From Nitrosomonas sp. (GTDB lineage Bacteria; Pseudomonadota; Gammaproteobacteria; Burkholderiales; Nitrosomonadaceae), in the NCBI GenBank assembly GCA_017879645.1, contig JAAEXZ010000019.1, forward strand, positions 1 to 34,211: 34,211 nucleotides of DNA, in the 5' to 3' direction. Every line of letters begins with the position of its first letter. Position 1 is the first letter of the stretch. The position numbers and the translations under genes are program-made. Shown piece after piece: positions 9,870-17,318 of the stretch. The notes beneath the pieces were generated by a model. It had not been told where the DNA came from and did not search any database. It worked only from the letters and a program-made list of their open reading frames with translations.

Positions 9870-10105
9870 TTTCGTTTTACTGTCTCGTTTTTTCATAAAT
9901 TTCTTCGATCGTTTTCTGGTTTCTATTCCAGAGCATATACGCTTGTAAATTTTGTACCGGATCAATTTACGAAATCAGGTTGAGTACTATTTCGTATTAC
10001 ATATAACTAATAAGCATATTTATTTAAATAAATATTATTTTTTTTTATATCATAAAGCTGATATTGTTCGCACCTATTGATATTTTTTTCAATCAGGTGA
10101 AGTAG
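9870..10105. other. AT-rich spacer before the sulfate-uptake cluster
   Basis: This 236-bp gap is much more AT-rich than its neighbours. It contains an inverted repeat GTAAATT/AATTTAC (9945-9951 and 9964-9970) and a perfect 20-bp palindrome at 10016-10035, followed by a long T run to about 10046. It is the only sizeable gap upstream of the 7-kb cluster, so the promoter probably lies here. Individual -35/-10 boxes cannot be assigned with confidence. Confidence 0.5.
10016..10035. repeat. Perfect 20-bp AT-only palindrome
   Basis: ATATTTATTT is followed immediately by its exact reverse complement, then by T-A and a run of T. It lies 70 bp upstream of the DUF2292 gene. It could be an operator, or an AU-only terminator for cca, which would be weak. 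Confidence 0.6.
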
Positions 10106-10330
10106 ATGGATACCAACGCACAATTAGACTTAGAAGCACCTCTTGCCATCAGAGATACAAGTAAACGGGTACCGGTGGAAATTGCCCAGGAAATTTTGCG
10201 GGCCATTGCAGCAATCGAATATGGATCGGTCGAGGTAGTTGTGCATGAAGGTAAGGTCATGCAAATCGAATGTCGGGAGAAAATTCGCTTGAGTCAGGGT
10301 GGATCTGTCCGCAAGGCAACCAAATCTTGA
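10106..10330 (+). CDS. YezD-like DUF2292 small protein
   Basis: The 74-residue product has the DUF2292 pattern: a helix (VPVEIAQEILRAIAAIEYGSV) followed by strands EVVVHEGKVMQIECREKIRL. In Bacillus, the relative YezD belongs to the sulfur-metabolism regulon. Similar small proteins sit with sulfate and cysteine genes in many bacteria, which agrees with the sulfate transporter genes downstream here. The start has an AGGTGAAG site nearby. There is no signal peptide, so it is cytoplasmic. Its molecular role is unknown. Confidence 0.82.
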   Translation: MDTNAQLDLEAPLAIRDTSKRVPVEIAQEILRAIAAIEYGSVEVVVHEGKVMQIECREKIRLSQGGSVRKATKS

Positions 10331-10349
10331 ATCCAGGTAATCAATTCCG

Positions 10350-10445
10350 GTGATCAAGTTCGATTGATCGCGAAAGCAGAACACCGACCCGTAAAAAGGG
10401 GGTGCTACAGAATAAAAATAAACGGTGACCCAACCAGATTGCTGG
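10350..10445 (+). promoter_or_regulatory. Candidate structured leader upstream of the porin gene
   Basis: The 135-bp gap between the DUF2292 gene and the porin can form three hairpins in a row. First is GTGATCAA with TTGATCGC (10350-10357 and 10364-10371, one G-U pair, loop GTTCGA). Second is CACCG with CGGTG (10382-10386 and 10423-10427), enclosing ACCC/GGGT around a GTAAAAA loop. Third is CCAG/CTGG (10434-10445), ending just before the AGGAG at 10458. No known riboswitch class is recognised. The idea that it regulates translation of the porin or the downstream genes is inference. Confidence 0.35.
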
Positions 10446-10465
10446 AGGGATCATTCAGGAGAACA

Positions 10466-12160
10466 ATGGTGAAGTTTTTTGAAATGTCCTTGAAGTTGTT
10501 ATTACATGTGGCGGTAGCGGGCGCGATTGCATCAGGTTCAGCAAGAGCATCCACAGAAACAGCAGGAGATAAAAAATTTCTGGATTTTCAGGCTATGCAA
10601 CAGAATGTTGTGCAATTGGTTCAGCAGATGTCCGATGAAACGGCCAAGCCCTCAACGGATAACTCAGCCACACGATCCAAACCGTTGGATCAGGAAAAAT
10701 CTTTGCCAGCCATTGTGCCGAAAGCCAGTAATCAGTCTACTAGTTATCATCGGCGCTCAAACAGCTATGCCACCAATCCTGATTCCGATCCGCCACGATA
10801 TGTACGCCGCCTGAGTGATATCGGCGTCGAAGCTTTTAAGGATATTACCTGGCTGGATATCGGCTTTGAATCACGGATGCGCTATGAACATCGCCACAAC
10901 GATATTCGGCGTATTGAGGGTGGTAATGATGATCCATTTTTTCTACGTAATCGCGCATGGATAGGGATTAGGGATATTCTCGATCCGTTTCGCTTTGCAG
11001 TCGAATTTCAGGATTCCCGAGTTTATAACAACCGATTTGTATCAACCGACCAGGAAAGGAATGAGTTCGATTTGATCAATGCTTATGGTGAACTCTATTT
11101 CAAGAGTGCTCTTGGTGCCGATGATCGTGGCAATAACCGGCCGATCCGGTTCCGGGTTGGTCGATTTGCCTATGAAGCAACTGACCGGCGCTTCATTGCA
11201 CGTAACGAGTGGCGCAACACGACCAATTCATTTGAAGGTTTTCGTCTTAATTTAGGCCGGGAAGCCAATGACTGGGAACTGGATTTGTTTGGCATGCAGC
11301 CGGTACGACGCTTACAAACCAGATTTGACGAAGCTAATGATCACCTTTGGACATTTGGTGCAATCGCTACATGGCGAAGATGGTCAGACATTATCACCAT
11401 TCAACCTTATTATTTGGGACAAAAACAAACGGCTGACCCTAATGGTTTTACAGCGACCAATAAGCTAGATCGGGAAATCCACATGCCTGGATTTCGTGCA
11501 TACGGGAATGTTGGAAGTTGGTTTGACTACGATGTCAGCTATAACCATCAGCTAGGATTTAGTGGGCCACGCAGACAAGATGCTCAGGGTTATACCGTTG
11601 AAGTAGGAAAAACATTCAATCATTCCTGGAAACCGAGATTAGGTCTGTTTTACGGATATGCCAGTGGTGACAAGGATCCCAATGATAATGTCGATAACCG
11701 TTTTGATCGTTTCTTCGGATTTGCCCGTCCCTGGTCAGCCGATCACTATGTCATTTATGAGAACTTGAAAGCCCCTAAAATCCGGTTTGAATTCAGCCCG
11801 ACACAAAAGCTGGGTTTTGAGTTGGGATATGGCGGTTATTGGTTAGCCAGTAGCACTGATCGTATGTTTGATACTCTTGATGGCAATATTAGCAATACAA
11901 TCAAGGATCCAGGGTTTAATCGTGATCGTACTGGTAAAAGCGGTGACTTTGCCGGCCACTCATTTGAAGGACGTATCCGCTATCAGCCTACTTCACGCAT
12001 CAGCACCATTCTCGGGTATACACATTTCACTGCCGGTGAATTCGTAAAGAATCGTATCGCTGCAACTTCTTGCGCTGTGTTAAATAAAGAGCCTTGCACC
12101 GATCAACGCTCAGGTGACACCGACTTTATATATTTCGAAGTACTCATCAGTCTTTTATAA
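10466..12160 (+). CDS. Alginate-export-family outer-membrane porin
   Basis: The 564-residue product has a signal peptide (about residues 1-28, ending SGSARA). A polar linker of about 85 residues follows, then a long beta-barrel region starting near [21 protein letters not shown] and running to the end. The barrel shows alternating aromatic/polar strands and motifs such as [23 protein letters not shown], resembling the Alginate_exp family. The start at 10466 follows a strong CAGGAGAACA site; an in-frame TTG at 10364 would add an unlikely N-terminus. Members of this family are general anion-type porins as well as alginate exporters. Its place directly before sbp suggests passage of sulfate or organosulfur compounds; no alginate genes are present here. 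Confidence 0.8.
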
Positions 12161-12189
12161 CCCTTTTTATTGAATTTTGGAGAATCATC

Positions 12190-13191
12190 ATGAAAATCAG
12201 AAATTGGCTTACCACCACCCTGTTAGCGACGAGCTTGTTGACCAGTGCGCATGCAGTGGCAGAAAAAACCTTGCTGAATGTATCTTATGATCCCACGCGG
12301 GAACTGTATCAGGAATTCAACAAAGCTTTTGCCAAACACTGGCAGGAAAAAACCAAGGAAGCTGTGTCCATCAAGCAATCACATGGCGGTTCCGGAAAGC
12401 AGGCGCGCTCCGTTATCGATGGATTGGAAGCCGATGTGGTTACACTGGCGCTGGCCAATGATATCAATGCCATTGCCGAAAAGGCCAAGCTGTTACCCGA
12501 AGACTGGCAAAAACGTCTGGCGCTCAATAGCACACCATACACTTCGACGATCATTTTTCTAGTGCGCAAAGGCAATCCCAAGGGAATAAAAAACTGGGAT
12601 GATCTGGCGCGTCCGGGTGTTTCTGTCATCACGCCAAATCCGAAAACTTCCGGTGGTGCGCAGTGGAATTACCTAGCGGCATGGGAATATGGCAAACGCC
12701 GCTTTGGTGAAGACAAGGCACAGGATTTCGTCAGGGATATTTACAAAAATGTTCCGGTTCTGGATTCAGGTGCTCGTGGATCGACCACGACATTCGTCGA
12801 GCGTGGCGTCGGCGATGTTTTCATTTCGTGGGAAAACGAGGCTTTTCTGGCCCTCAAGGAATATGGTGCGGACAAGTTTGAAATCGTCGTACCGTCATTG
12901 AGCGTGCTTGCTGAACCACCCGTCGCTATCGTGGATAAAGTCGTTGATAAACGCGGTACACGTCAGGTTGCCGAAGCCTATCTCGAATATCTCTATTCGG
13001 AAGAAGGTCAGGAAATTGCAGCCAAGCATTTTTACCGCCCTACCAATGAAATAGTTTCCAAGAAATATATCAAGCAGTTTCCGCAGATCGAATTATTCAA
13101 AATCGATGAGGCTTTTGGTGGCTGGAAAAATGCGCATAAAACGCATTTTGCCGATGGCGGCACATTCGATCAGATTTACTTGAAGCAATAG
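12190..13191 (+). CDS. sbp: Sulfate ABC transporter substrate-binding protein
   Basis: The 333-residue protein has a cleavable signal peptide (about 1-24, SAHAVA). It shows sulfate-binding family motifs: [51 protein letters not shown] and [16 protein letters not shown]. It captures sulfate (or thiosulfate) in the periplasm for CysTWA. A TTGGAGAATC ribosome binding site precedes the ATG. It lies 29 bp after the porin and is separated from cysT by two accessory genes. Confidence 0.95.
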
Positions 13192-13229
13192 CCTGGTCAT
13201 ATCGGGTTTGCTTTTCTAGCAAAGGATAA

Positions 13230-13580
13230 ATGATGACAGTTCTGATAGTCGGTGGGGATTATGTCAGTTCGTTCAAGCAACTGATCGCCTCAAAGCGCAA
13301 TGTACAGGTCGAGCACTGGAATGGTCGCAAAAAAGGATATGGCAAGCGGGCACTACCCAATGAAACCAAGCTGGTCGTACCGGTGTGCGATTATGTCAGC
13401 CATAGCCTGGCGCATGCTGTGAAGGAAAAAGCGAATCGCAACAAGATTCCCCTGCTGTATTGCCATCGCTCGGTCAACGAGCTGAAACACAAGCTGATAC
13501 AAAACGAGGAGCTGGCTGATGCAACGGGTTGTTGTCCTTATGCCTGTCGTACCCCCAAACCTATTCGGAGATTGCACTAA
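13230..13580 (+). CDS. DUF2325 family protein in the sulfate operon
   Basis: This 116-residue protein starts MMTVLIVGGDYVSSFKQ and has the DUF2325 layout. An N-terminal VLIVGG strand is followed by a central VVPVCDYVSHSLAHAVKEKA and then IPLLYCHRS. The C-terminal tail contains two adjacent cysteines (CCPYAC) and is basic. DUF2325 proteins are small, cytoplasmic and of unknown function. An AAAGGA site lies six to seven bases before the double ATG. It sits 38 bp after sbp and 50 bp before the EAL-like gene, all on one strand, so it is probably co-transcribed with the transporter. Confidence 0.78.
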   Translation: MMTVLIVGGDYVSSFKQLIASKRNVQVEHWNGRKKGYGKRALPNETKLVVPVCDYVSHSLAHAVKEKANRNKIPLLYCHRSVNELKHKLIQNEELADATGCCPYACRTPKPIRRLH

Positions 13581-13630
13581 TGCCTGATGAATAATGTGGA
13601 TCGCACGATCCATAAATGAAGGAGTATTTC

Positions 13631-14482
13631 ATGAATAAAACCGGCATCAATACCAGTATCAAAAACGAATTCGAGCTGATTCAATCCGCTACGGATTACG
13701 CACTCAAACGAGACGAAAAGGGTTGGATCAGCGGCCAGTTTTATCAATGCGAATTGACCAGTGTGTTTCAGCCGGTTTGGGGTATTGATCAGGGCATCAC
13801 TTTGGGGCACGCAGCTTATGTACGCTCCAAGGCTCATGGACAGGTTGCATTATGGCCGTGGCAGGTTTTTGCCCTGGCATCGAAGGATGAGCAACTGATC
13901 GATCTGGATCGGCTATGCCGGGCCATTCATGCCTTAAATTATTATTTCAACAATACTTCCAAGGCAAACACCGTGTTGTTTGTTGATGTTCATCCCCGTT
14001 TACTGGAAAGCGTCAAGGACGATCACGGTCGGGCCTTCGAGAATTTTCTCGATCTGATCGGTGTGAGAACCTCGCAGGTGGTGATCGAGATTCCGGCCAT
14101 CGTCAACCGTAACTGGAAATTGCTACAGCATGTGATTACCAACTATCGCTCGCGAGGCTACCGTATTGCCGCCAACTATACCGGCAGCCGGATTGACTGG
14201 ATGACTGAGCTGGGCAGTCTGTATCCCGATTTCGTGCGGATCGAAGCGGGCGATCTGCAGCGGCATGAAGCCGTTGCCGCGCTGGTGGATACGATACACA
14301 GCTATGGCGGCAGTTTGCTGGTGCGAGATGTGGAAACGCCAGCACAATTGTCCGCAGCCATCAGGGCAAAGGCAGATTATTTGCAAGGCAATTTGATCGG
14401 CAAACCGCAAAACCTGATTAAAGAAGCCGAATTATTACCTATTTCGGAATTGGCTGATTCGACTGTCAATTCCAAGCCATGA
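13631..14482 (+). CDS. Degenerate EAL-domain protein in the sulfate operon
   Basis: The 283-residue protein has the overall pattern of an EAL (cyclic-di-GMP phosphodiesterase) domain with its active-site residues replaced. The EAL motif position reads HAAYVR, the FxNxSP strand reads LFVDVHP, the DDFG position reads ANYTGS, and EGVE reads RDVE. The closing [10 protein letters not shown] is kept. It is therefore predicted to lack phosphodiesterase activity but could bind a nucleotide or a partner. The start at 13631 is chosen because GAAGGAG lies just upstream, overlapping an alternative ATG at 13616. cysT follows after 22 bp. Confidence 0.78.
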
Positions 14483-14504
14483 CCGTGACATACAGGAGTG
14501 TGCA

Positions 14505-15338
14505 ATGTATCCACTAAAACAACATAGCATTTTGCCGGGCTTCAATCTGGCATTGGGTTTTACCCTGCTCTATCTGAGCCTGATCGTATTGATTCCATTA
14601 TCGGCTGCATTCATACGCACAGCGGAACTCAGTTGGCCCGATTTCTGGTCCATTGTTACGACACCGCGTGTGCTGGCGTCATATCGTTTGACTTTCGGTG
14701 CGTCATTTGCCGCAGCCTTGGTGAATGCGCTATTTGGCTTGCTGGTGGCGTGGGTGCTGGTGCGTTACCACTTTCCTGGCAAGAAATTCGTCGATGCCTT
14801 GGTGGATCTGCCCTTTGCTTTACCCACCGCCGTCGCAGGTATCGCACTGACCGCGCTGTATGCCGGCAATGGCTGGATAGGCCAGTATCTCGAGCCACTG
14901 GGTATCAAGGTGGCTTTTACTCCATTGGGAATTTTTGTGGCGTTGACTTTCATCGGATTGCCCTTTGTCGTGCGTACGGTGCAGCCGGTTCTGGAAGATG
15001 TCGAAGCCGAACTGGAAGAAGCCGCTGCGACGCTGGGCGCCAATCGTTGGCAAACGTTTACGCGGGTGATATTTCCGGCAATTTTTCCGGCACTGATGAC
15101 CGGATTCGCGTTGGCATTTGCACGGGCGATCGGTGAGTACGGTTCGGTAATTTTCATTGCCGGAAACATGCCGATGATTTCCGAAATCACACCGCTGCTC
15201 ATCATCACCAAGCTGGAACAATACGATTACGCGGGTGCTACGGCACTTTCCGTGGTGATGCTGGTTATTTCCTTTATCTTGTTGCTGATCATCAACCTGT
15301 TGCAATGGTGGAGTCGGCAACGCAGTAGCAAAGCCTGA
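14505..15338 (+). CDS. cysT: Sulfate ABC transporter permease CysT (CysU)
   Basis: The 277-residue inner-membrane permease has about six membrane segments. The binding-protein-dependent EAA loop is [21 protein letters not shown] (about residues 173-193), which docks on CysA. The segment [15 protein letters not shown] and the run [14 protein letters not shown] are typical of the CysT family. An AGGAG site precedes the ATG. It lies seven bases before cysW, with which it forms the membrane channel. Confidence 0.94.
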
Positions 15339-15345
15339 GGTCAAG

Positions 15346-16221
15346 ATGACAACCATAACTTTCCCCTCCCTGTCCCCTGCTGCACAGCAGCATGCAACGC
15401 AGGAACCGAGATGGGTGCGCTGGACGCTGATCAGCATCGCCTTGCTGTTTCTGACGCTATTTCTATTCATTCCACTGATTTCCGTTTTTTATGAGGCTTT
15501 CAAGAAAGGAGTGGAGGTGTATGTGGCGGCGATCACCGATCCCGATGCCCTGTCAGCCATCAAGTTGACATTGACAGTGGCTGCCATTGCTGTGCCTTTG
15601 AATATGATCTTCGGCATTGCAGCTGCTTGGGCCATTGCCAAGTTTGAATTCCGTGGCAAGAATCTGCTGATCACTCTGATCGATCTGCCTTTTTCGGTAT
15701 CGCCCGTCGTTTCGGGTTTGATTTATGTGCTGGTTTTTGGCCTGCAAGGCTGGCTGGGGCCGTGGCTGTCTGAGCATGACTTCAAAATCATTTTCGCTGT
15801 GCCCGGGATTGTTCTGGCAACGGTGTTCGTCACGGTGCCTTTCATCGCCCGGGAATTGATTCCGCTGATGCAGGCGCAGGGTACGGAAGAGGAGGAAGCT
15901 GCCGTGGTGTTGGGCGCAAATGGCTGGCAAACTTTTTTCAAGATTACTTTACCGAATATCAAATGGGGCCTGCTCTACGGCGCCATTTTGTGTAACGCAC
16001 GGGCAATGGGTGAATTCGGAGCGGTTTCGGTCGTATCCGGCCACATTCGTGGCAGTACCAATACCATGCCGCTGCACGTGGAAATCCTTTACAACGAATA
16101 CAATTTCGCCGCCGCATTTGCCGTGGCTTCACTGCTGGCATTACTGGCTCTGGTGACACTGGCTTTGAAAACACTGATTGAATTTCGTAATCGACAACAT
16201 CAACAACGAGGTCACGAATGA
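15346..16221 (+). CDS. cysW: Sulfate ABC transporter permease CysW
   Basis: This 291-residue partner permease of CysT has about six membrane segments. Its EAA loop reads [19 protein letters not shown], and the CysW-type motif [17 protein letters not shown] follows. It has a longer hydrophilic N-terminus (about 24 residues) than CysT. Its stop overlaps the start of cysA (ATGA at 16218-16221), indicating coupled translation of the permease and ATPase. Confidence 0.94.
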
Positions 16222-17318
16222 GTATTGAAGTTTTGAATCTATCCAAGCAGTTCGGCACATTTACAGCGCTGCACAATGTCAGTTTGCAAGTGCATTCGGG
16301 CGAATTGCTGGCTTTGCTCGGTCCTTCCGGTTCGGGTAAAACCACGCTGCTACGGGTCATTGCCGGGCTGGAAACTGCGGATAGCGGGCAAGTATTGTTT
16401 CATGGCGAGGATGCAACCGATCAGCACGTGCGCGAACGTCAGGTTGGTTTCGTTTTTCAGCATTACGCGCTGTTTCGCAATATGACGATTTTCGAGAACG
16501 TTGCATTCGGATTGCGAGTGCGGCCGAAAAAATTCCGGCCTTCCAACGACGAGATACGTGATCGTGTCATGAAATTGCTGCATCTGGTGCAGTTGGACTG
16601 GCTGGCGGATCGGTATCCGCATCAACTTTCGGGCGGGCAGCGGCAGCGGATTGCGTTGGCACGCGCGTTGGCAGTGGAACCCAAAGTATTGCTACTGGAT
16701 GAGCCTTTCGGTGCCCTGGATGCCAAGGTGCGCAAGGAATTACGGTCGTGGTTGCGGCGACTGCATGACGATATGCATATCACCAGTGTATTCGTAACCC
16801 ATGATCAGGAAGAAGCACTGGAAGTCGCGGATCGTGTGGTGGTCATGAACGAGGGGCGTATCGAGCAGATTGGTACGCCAGACGAAGTGTACGAACAACC
16901 CGCCAGCCCTTTCGTGTACGAATTTCTGGGTAATGTAAATCTGTTTCATAGCCGGCTGCATCGTGGTCGGGCGTGGATCGGTGATATCGAACTGGAAGCT
17001 CCCGAGCATGCTGAAGCCGAAGAGCAAGCCGCAGTAGCTTATGTCCGCCCCCATGAAATCGAAGTCGAGCGTACGGCTAGTGGCGCCGCAGCAATATCTG
17101 CACTGGTCGTGCATGTTCTGACTGTGGGACCCATCGTACGTCTCGAACTGGTGCGCAAGGATGACGTGGATATTACACCGATCCAGGTTGAGCTGAGCAA
17201 GGAGCGCTTTCGCGAATTACAACTGGTGAAGGGCGACGAAGTATTCATTACGCCACGCCGCCTGGATGTGTTTCCAAGCCGGAAAGCGCATGTCGATGTG
17301 CAGTCGCAGATACTTTGA
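16218..17318 (+). CDS. cysA: Sulfate/thiosulfate import ATPase CysA
   Basis: CysA powers sulfate import. The 366-residue protein has Walker [10 protein letters not shown] (residues 35-43), Q-loop [11 protein letters not shown] signature [15 protein letters not shown], Walker [12 protein letters not shown] and the switch histidine in VTHDQEEA. The C-terminal domain (about residues 235-355, containing [14 protein letters not shown]) is typical of CysA and absent from short ABC ATPases. It is the last gene of the cluster and overlaps cysW by four bases. Confidence 0.96.

Follow-up and report, generated by a model that had tools for sequence, protein, structure and literature searches.

We analysed a stretch of 34,211 nucleotides from a Nitrosomonas sp. 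(contig JAAEXZ010000019.1; the whole stretch is called the window here), in which eight genes of the plus strand, between positions 10106 and 17318, lie in one row with short gaps. Open reading frames and family profile searches place them in the order OscA-like DUF2292, Alginate_exp porin, sbp, DUF2325, degenerate EAL, cysT, cysW and cysA, exactly as a preliminary description of this DNA had claimed. The intergenic gaps measure, in order, 135, 29, 38, 35, 22, 7 and -4 bases, figures that use the porin start at 10466 and the opening of the EAL frame at 13616.

The row holds all parts of an Sbp-CysTWA importer: a binding protein, two permeases and an ATPase of the sulfate subfamily. The periplasmic sulfate-binding protein is encoded by sbp (12190..13191; NF008022 519 bits and TIGR00971 487 bits, both above cut-off), the permeases by cysT (14505..15338; TIGR02139 437 bits, above cut-off) and cysW (15346..16221; TIGR02140 432 bits, above cut-off), and the ATPase by cysA (16218..17318; TIGR00968 399 bits, above cut-off), whose product also matches the CysA C-terminal regulatory domain (67 bits). 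Sbp, CysT, CysW and CysA thus stand in the order of the known sbp-cysTWA operon, with subfamily models above cut-off; unlike that operon, the window adds DUF2325 and EAL genes between sbp and cysT and puts the OscA-like and porin genes first. We read the row as a sulfate-uptake operon in extended form, from a bacterium of the Nitrosomonas type.

The gene of main interest encodes an EAL-fold protein (13631..14482, 283 amino acids from the second ATG). Its frame opens at 13616 (288 amino acids), and the favoured start at 13631 follows a Shine-Dalgarno-like stretch. Membership of the EAL family is supported by a PF00563 score of 86.3 bits (gathering score 31.3) and by matches to the EAL barrel fold: the predicted model, built from 51 sequences, has an alpha/beta barrel layout with a mean predicted local distance difference test score (pLDDT) of 85.2, and its best match to solved EAL structures reaches an E value of 1.5e-14. 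YkuI of Bacillus subtilis (2bas, 2w27) is the nearest solved relative both by fold and by sequence profile, and 2w27 contains cyclic diguanosine monophosphate (c-di-GMP) and calcium. YkuI chains have about 400 residues with an additional C-terminal domain, and unlike them the window protein is shorter and degenerate. A YdiV-type identity was rejected at the sequence level, since the YdiV structure codes known to us are absent among the 47 solved-structure matches.

We took E1, N, E2, D1, D2, K, E3 and Q to be the eight catalytic and metal positions of an EAL enzyme. Alignment to intact relatives shows that the window protein retains two of them, E2 and Q, with E1 changed to A, N to D, D1 to N, D2 to Y, K to R and E3 to R; by these positions it is not an active c-di-GMP phosphodiesterase, and the inactivity asserted in the preliminary description is borne out. 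Three residues that we take to be ligand contacts (Q in FQP, R in EALxR, Q in QG) are all retained. In the 29 window-type rows of the alignment these contacts are kept in 29, 27 and 29 cases, respectively; of the catalytic positions, E1 survives in 1 row, N in 2, E2 in 27 and D1 in 4, and D2, K and E3 in none. Across all 72 degenerate rows, FQP-Q and EALxR-R are each kept in 58 and QG-Q in 67, D2 in none and E3 in 2. Loci L033-L111 were retrieved with the patterns LDRLCR.. and LL.SV.D.H, so that the conservation of these two stretches in the alignment is partly by construction; the LDRLCR.. stretch is also present, with variation, in most of the L003-L032 matches, which were retrieved without a pattern. 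The residue pattern of these dead EAL proteins is compatible with a role in binding rather than cutting, and it is our guess that the ligand may still be c-di-GMP, given the retention of FQP-Q, EALxR-R and QG-Q. This nucleotide is probably present in the cell, because the window's genome contains 22 EAL and 24 GGDEF matches.

To assess selection, we compared the ratio of nonsynonymous to synonymous substitution rates (dN/dS) between relatives. In the closest pair EAL has a value of 0.049, compared with 0.046 in Sbp and 0.054 in DUF2325; in three further pairs the EAL value lies between 0.054 and 0.077, with synonymous sites saturated (dS over 2), and two pairs were not computable. These estimates indicate that the dead EAL protein is under purifying selection, like Sbp. 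A decaying gene without function would explain why so few catalytic positions are left, and broken-looking EAL copies do occur in a few loci (L008, the second copy of L056, and L074), but a long open frame and a conserved EAL sequence are seen in most relatives. Within the limits of a pairwise dN/dS estimate, the selection result rules out functionless decay, which we regard as extremely improbable.

The conservation of the row was assessed in one genome per species over 84,980 species, where the best 80 of 130 confirmed EAL relatives gave 79 named loci. Among these best 80 of 130, the nearest named relative of the window EAL protein is L033, at 97% identity, from a Nitrosomonas metagenome-assembled genome. 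The 46 closest loci (L033-L078), chosen by EAL, come from 40 records that bear the name Nitrosomonas, Nitrosospira or Nitrosovibrio and from six metagenome-assembled genomes that bear none of these names; sbp and cysT are each found in 44 of the loci, the porin gene in 42, the OscA gene in 40 and the DUF2325 gene in 31. Immediately 5' of the matched EAL gene lies DUF2325 in 28 loci, sbp in 12 and another EAL in 4, while 2 loci reach the contig end there; 3' of it, cysT follows in 29 loci, an encapsulin gene in 16, of which one is a 25-residue remnant, and another EAL in 1. Because the order recurs in most related genomes examined, the arrangement in the window is not the chance of one genome.

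Loci of the genus were also selected by cysT rather than by EAL: here EAL lies upstream in 17 of 25, accompanied in the same set by DUF2325 in 13, OscA in 17, Sbp in 24 and the porin in 22. OscA is present in 16 of the 17 loci with EAL versus 1 of the 8 without. DUF2325 and EAL may form one unit, as the preliminary description proposed: DUF2325 is never seen without EAL in the 25 loci, but 4 of the 17 EAL loci (one of which ends at a contig end) show no DUF2325. At the level of whole genomes (36 of the genus, the window's left out), DUF2292 is found in 15/18 genomes with EAL versus 2/18 without, and cysT in 15/18 versus 7/18; EAL in turn is found in 15/22 genomes with cysT versus 3/14 without, a weaker association than in the sample of the order described below. 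The named-locus set and the same-genus genome set overlap in part, and the genomes in all counts are related by descent and not independent.

The order sample consisted of 200 genomes, 199 besides the window's, and cysT was found in 79 of the 199. With the window left out, the 25 strongest EAL matches (E < 1e-26, a threshold picked after inspection of the list) come from 25 genomes with 12 family codes, all of which have cysT, so that such a match is present in 25/79 cysT genomes versus 0/120 without cysT. For 19 of these matches cysT is no more than 15 kb away, and for eight a DUF2325 gene is, while only 4/25 of the next weaker EAL matches in cysT genomes are near cysT; these EAL counts cover complete E-value bins, the bin from 1e-15 to 1e-6 not being used. 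The linkage of DUF2325 is looser: among the 80 matches listed, 9 lie within 20 kb of cysT. Among the 33 more distant named loci, 19 have a sulfur gene in the retrieved flanks. In a class sample of 369 genomes, read from match positions, stand-alone EAL genes for about 300-340 amino acids have cysT as a close neighbour in three genomes, at about 0.5 kb in G227 and in G372 and at about 3 kb in G446, and a match of the same size type in G334 lies 57 kb from cysT; longer EAL relatives in G348, G443 and G459 share the genome with cysT, not its place. These data indicate that the EAL-sulfate link extends beyond the window's family and that a clade of dead EAL proteins is tied to sulfate-import genes across many families. 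The proposal of the preliminary description that the extra genes belong with sbp-cysTWA is therefore upheld, both by the order kept in relatives and by the association of EAL with cysT and with DUF2292.

A quick tree of 94 EAL rows, with several long branches that leave its details unsure, was built after leaving out L008, two pieces of the second EAL of L056, L070 and L074, and then thinning 37 of 131 rows. The sulfate-linked EAL proteins and their near kin form one branch of 80 rows, with a Shimodaira-Hasegawa-like approximate likelihood ratio test value of 96. Catalytically intact EAL proteins near sbp or cysT branch early (L019, L024, L026, L027, L089, L090 and L094). The intact and degenerate labels need two changes on the tree, with or without the eight catalytic columns; well-supported branches force two changes in the tree without these columns and one in the full tree. 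On this quick tree, catalysis appears to have been lost at least twice, and since the early-branching sulfate-linked members are intact, the sulfate link probably preceded the loss. In the Rhodocyclus-type loci L089:4595-8954 and L090:7953-9552, an intact and a degenerate EAL gene are encoded on opposite strands close to sbp or cysTWA.

An EAL-domain gene next to sulfate-import genes could also be a passenger, expressed with them while its product acts elsewhere, in motility or biofilm formation. PA0285, a GGDEF-EAL phosphodiesterase of Pseudomonas whose gene adjoins cysAWT-sbp, appears to be such a case; it regulates attachment and biofilm architecture (PMC10874727). The catalytic integrity of the early-branching sulfate-linked members also agrees with this explanation. 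PA0285 is a dual GGDEF/EAL enzyme, whereas the window's dead EAL domain stands alone. Against the passenger explanation, the window's clade lost catalysis yet kept the sulfate link, and the presence of EAL goes with cysT and DUF2292. We consider it doubtful that the window protein is a passenger.

Regulatory genes of sulfur metabolism are also found around these EAL genes. Among the 46 closest loci, 11 contain a CysB-like regulator gene, as do 5 of the 33 more distant ones. The window's genome contains a second, more degenerate EAL gene (L178:6896-8873, contig C37), with an EAL model score of 20.7 bits, below cut-off, which is divergent from a CysB-like gene; for the latter, the CysB family is the best model at 311 bits, below its cut-off of 402. 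Relatives of this second EAL come after cysA in several Nitrosomonas loci, and at L180 the order is cysA, EAL, cysB, with cysB at 423 bits, above cut-off. Such neighbours would suit a transcriptional anti-regulator, in which EAL binds a CysB-family regulator and so acts on the entire sulfur-starvation regulon instead of on the transporter; YdiV, which binds FlhDC, serves as a model. As opposed to this, the window EAL lies within the transporter row, where no CysB gene adjoins it. We hold an anti-regulator to be possible, although unlikely.

A further set of neighbours points to sulfur storage. A full-length family 2A encapsulin shell gene is found in 16 of the 46 loci, directly after EAL in 15; of the same 46 loci, 16 contain the gene for its cysteine desulfurase cargo and 9 contain cysE. 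At L034:8909-11450 the shell and desulfurase genes lie between EAL and cysT, within the sulfate row, and the pair has the same place in L037, L038, L040-L043, L047, L048, L051, L053, L070 and L077. A 25-residue stretch between EAL and cysT at L049:8909-8983 shows an 80% match to the shell protein and may be what is left of an encapsulin gene that was lost. An encapsulin set near linked EAL genes is also seen in two distant families (L166 and L177). Two reports (PMC8049743, PMC8346489) describe sulfur starvation as inducing family 2A encapsulins, and serine O-acetyltransferase as an enriched neighbour of theirs; neither EAL nor Nitrosomonas turned up when the two main texts were searched for these terms.

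Based on these loci, EAL could serve sulfur storage and merely share its operon with import. The position of the shell gene directly after EAL, its desulfurase partner, the possible remnant and the two distant families all favour this explanation. On the other hand, 30 of the 46 loci show no full-length encapsulin, the window's sulfate row lacks one, and a search of the window's genome turned up no family 2A encapsulin, a weak negative since the assembly is 90.6% complete and a control search was likewise without matches. We judge a storage role to be highly improbable.

The explanation that we favour, to which we assign a probability of about 0.5, is that the EAL protein is a sulfur-dedicated pseudoenzyme with a regulatory role in sulfate import or in the sulfur-starvation response, exerted probably through ligand-dependent protein binding. 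The eight genes would be transcribed as one unit induced by sulfur limitation, and the EAL pseudoenzyme, produced together with the transporter, would work much as FimX or LapD do, binding a partner protein and turning it on or off depending on the bound ligand. This partner might be the importer itself, through CysA or the permeases, or a CysB-family regulator of sulfur starvation; DUF2325 would be an optional partner, and the porin would pass the substrate through the outer membrane. FimX and LapD are degenerate EAL receptors that share the fold and the loss of catalysis, and the fold search also matched EAL structures of FimX; unlike them, the putative receptor encoded in the window has no GGDEF domain or membrane part.

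Several observations weigh against this explanation. Single kept residues do not establish binding, and in the second EAL type, found beside cysA or cysB, the FQP-Q and EALxR-R positions are also lost. Eight of the 25 in-genus cysTWA loci have neither EAL nor DUF2325, and seven of these eight also lack OscA; 3 of the 18 EAL genomes of the genus have no cysT match, two of them under 90% complete and the third, G573, recorded as 100% complete and consisting of about 200 contigs. In the order, 6 of the 25 strongest EAL matches are not within 15 kb of cysT, and 14 of the 33 more distant loci, some on short contigs, show no sulfur gene in the retrieved flanks. In the class sample, matches of 300-400 amino acids occur in genomes without a cysT match (three in G500, and others in G325, G353 and G463).

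The loci without the two genes, set beside the 17 with EAL, show that two operon forms, short and extended, exist in one genus, and that EAL and DUF2325 are not needed for transport as such. By these comparisons, the EAL-DUF2325 module is an add-on to the sulfate operon. The control of transport that the preliminary description assigned to the two proteins is supported in part: the conservation of a catalytically dead EAL protein fits a control role, and the transporter is a possible target.

The dead EAL protein in sulfate-import rows suggests an as yet undescribed control step in sulfur uptake; to our knowledge, the control of sulfate importers beyond transcription is poorly described. A broader proposal, tentative and in our view rather unlikely, would see a sulfur-dedicated EAL branch that passed from phosphodiesterase to pseudoenzyme receptor gating a nutrient ATP-binding cassette importer and coupling c-di-GMP or another nucleotide to sulfate uptake, with sulfate linkage before catalytic loss, across many families of the order and a few genomes of the class. 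A dead signalling-enzyme fold in the sulfate operons of ammonia oxidisers and their relatives offers an entry to whether such a nucleotide sets sulfur uptake, and the series from intact to dead within one linked clade is a natural set for studying the change from enzyme to receptor. Where family 2A encapsulin lies beside EAL, import and a sulfur-linked nanocompartment are joined in one cluster. Searches of the open literature, outside which most subscription papers lie, yielded the location of PA0285 but no account of an EAL pseudoenzyme linked to sulfate. We therefore regard the locus as a known kind of operon in a new form, carrying a member of a known domain family whose sulfur-linked branch is new.

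Upstream of the row, an alignment of 41 upstream stretches, the window's included, reveals a conserved block just 5' of the OscA gene, beyond which the DNA farther 5' is not conserved. This AT-rich element (10001..10072, plus strand, bounds judged by eye), with a TGnTA-like stretch close to its end, is likely the promoter region of the operon. The attempt to assign the block to CysB or another regulator failed. Signal scans across the window gave zero Rfam matches at gathering scores, 9 promoter-like sites versus 12.6 expected from shuffles (standard deviation 3.1) and 14 terminator-like sites versus 10.2 expected (standard deviation 3.7), neither of the latter two clearly above shuffles.

The first gene encodes the OscA-like DUF2292 protein (10106..10330, 74 amino acids), which belongs to DUF2292 (PF10055 57 bits, gathering score 22) and falls short of the OscA equivalog NF033785, at 41.7 bits versus a cut-off of 85. 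Viti 2009 is reportedly the source for an oscA-sbp transcriptional unit. In Pseudomonas corrugata 28, a small DUF2292/OscA protein gene likewise precedes the sulfate-binding protein gene, so that the oscA-sbp link itself is already known in Pseudomonas (PMC3596284); unlike that unit, the window's protein is under the OscA cut-off, and porin, DUF2325 and EAL go unmentioned in the accessible part of that report.

The outer-membrane porin (10466..12160, 564 amino acids from its ATG) matches PF13372 at 325 bits (gathering score 25.2), a match that gives the porin family and not alginate as the substrate; it may, as the preliminary description proposed, admit sulfate or organosulfur. Its longest open frame begins at 10364, and the start at 10466 is favoured by an AGGAG ahead of the ATG. 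Compared with the nearest counterpart (L033:4750-6522), the porin shows 82% identity and a dS of 1.42, while the genes around it show 97-99% identity to theirs and a dS of 0.13-0.31; this far greater divergence suggests an exchange of the porin gene. A second OscA-porin pair is present after a second EAL gene, downstream of cysA, at L036:12835-14809 and in L218.

The DUF2325 gene (13230..13580) encodes 116 amino acids with a cysteine-containing C-terminus (PF10087 51 bits, gathering score 33.6). Its predicted fold is alpha/beta (Rossmann-like) with a model pLDDT of 75; no solved fold matched at E <= 0.001, sequence searches gave no matches or chance-level ones, and the structure was dropped as a guide to this protein on account of the pLDDT and the missing fold match. 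A second DUF2325 gene (a frame of 212 amino acids) lies in the window's genome outside the sulfate cluster (L001, contig C9). Repeats of the module are seen among the relatives: tandem EAL genes lie between sbp and cysT in L042, L058, L059, L061 and L067, and in L061 (N. communis) the DUF2325-EAL pair itself is repeated there.

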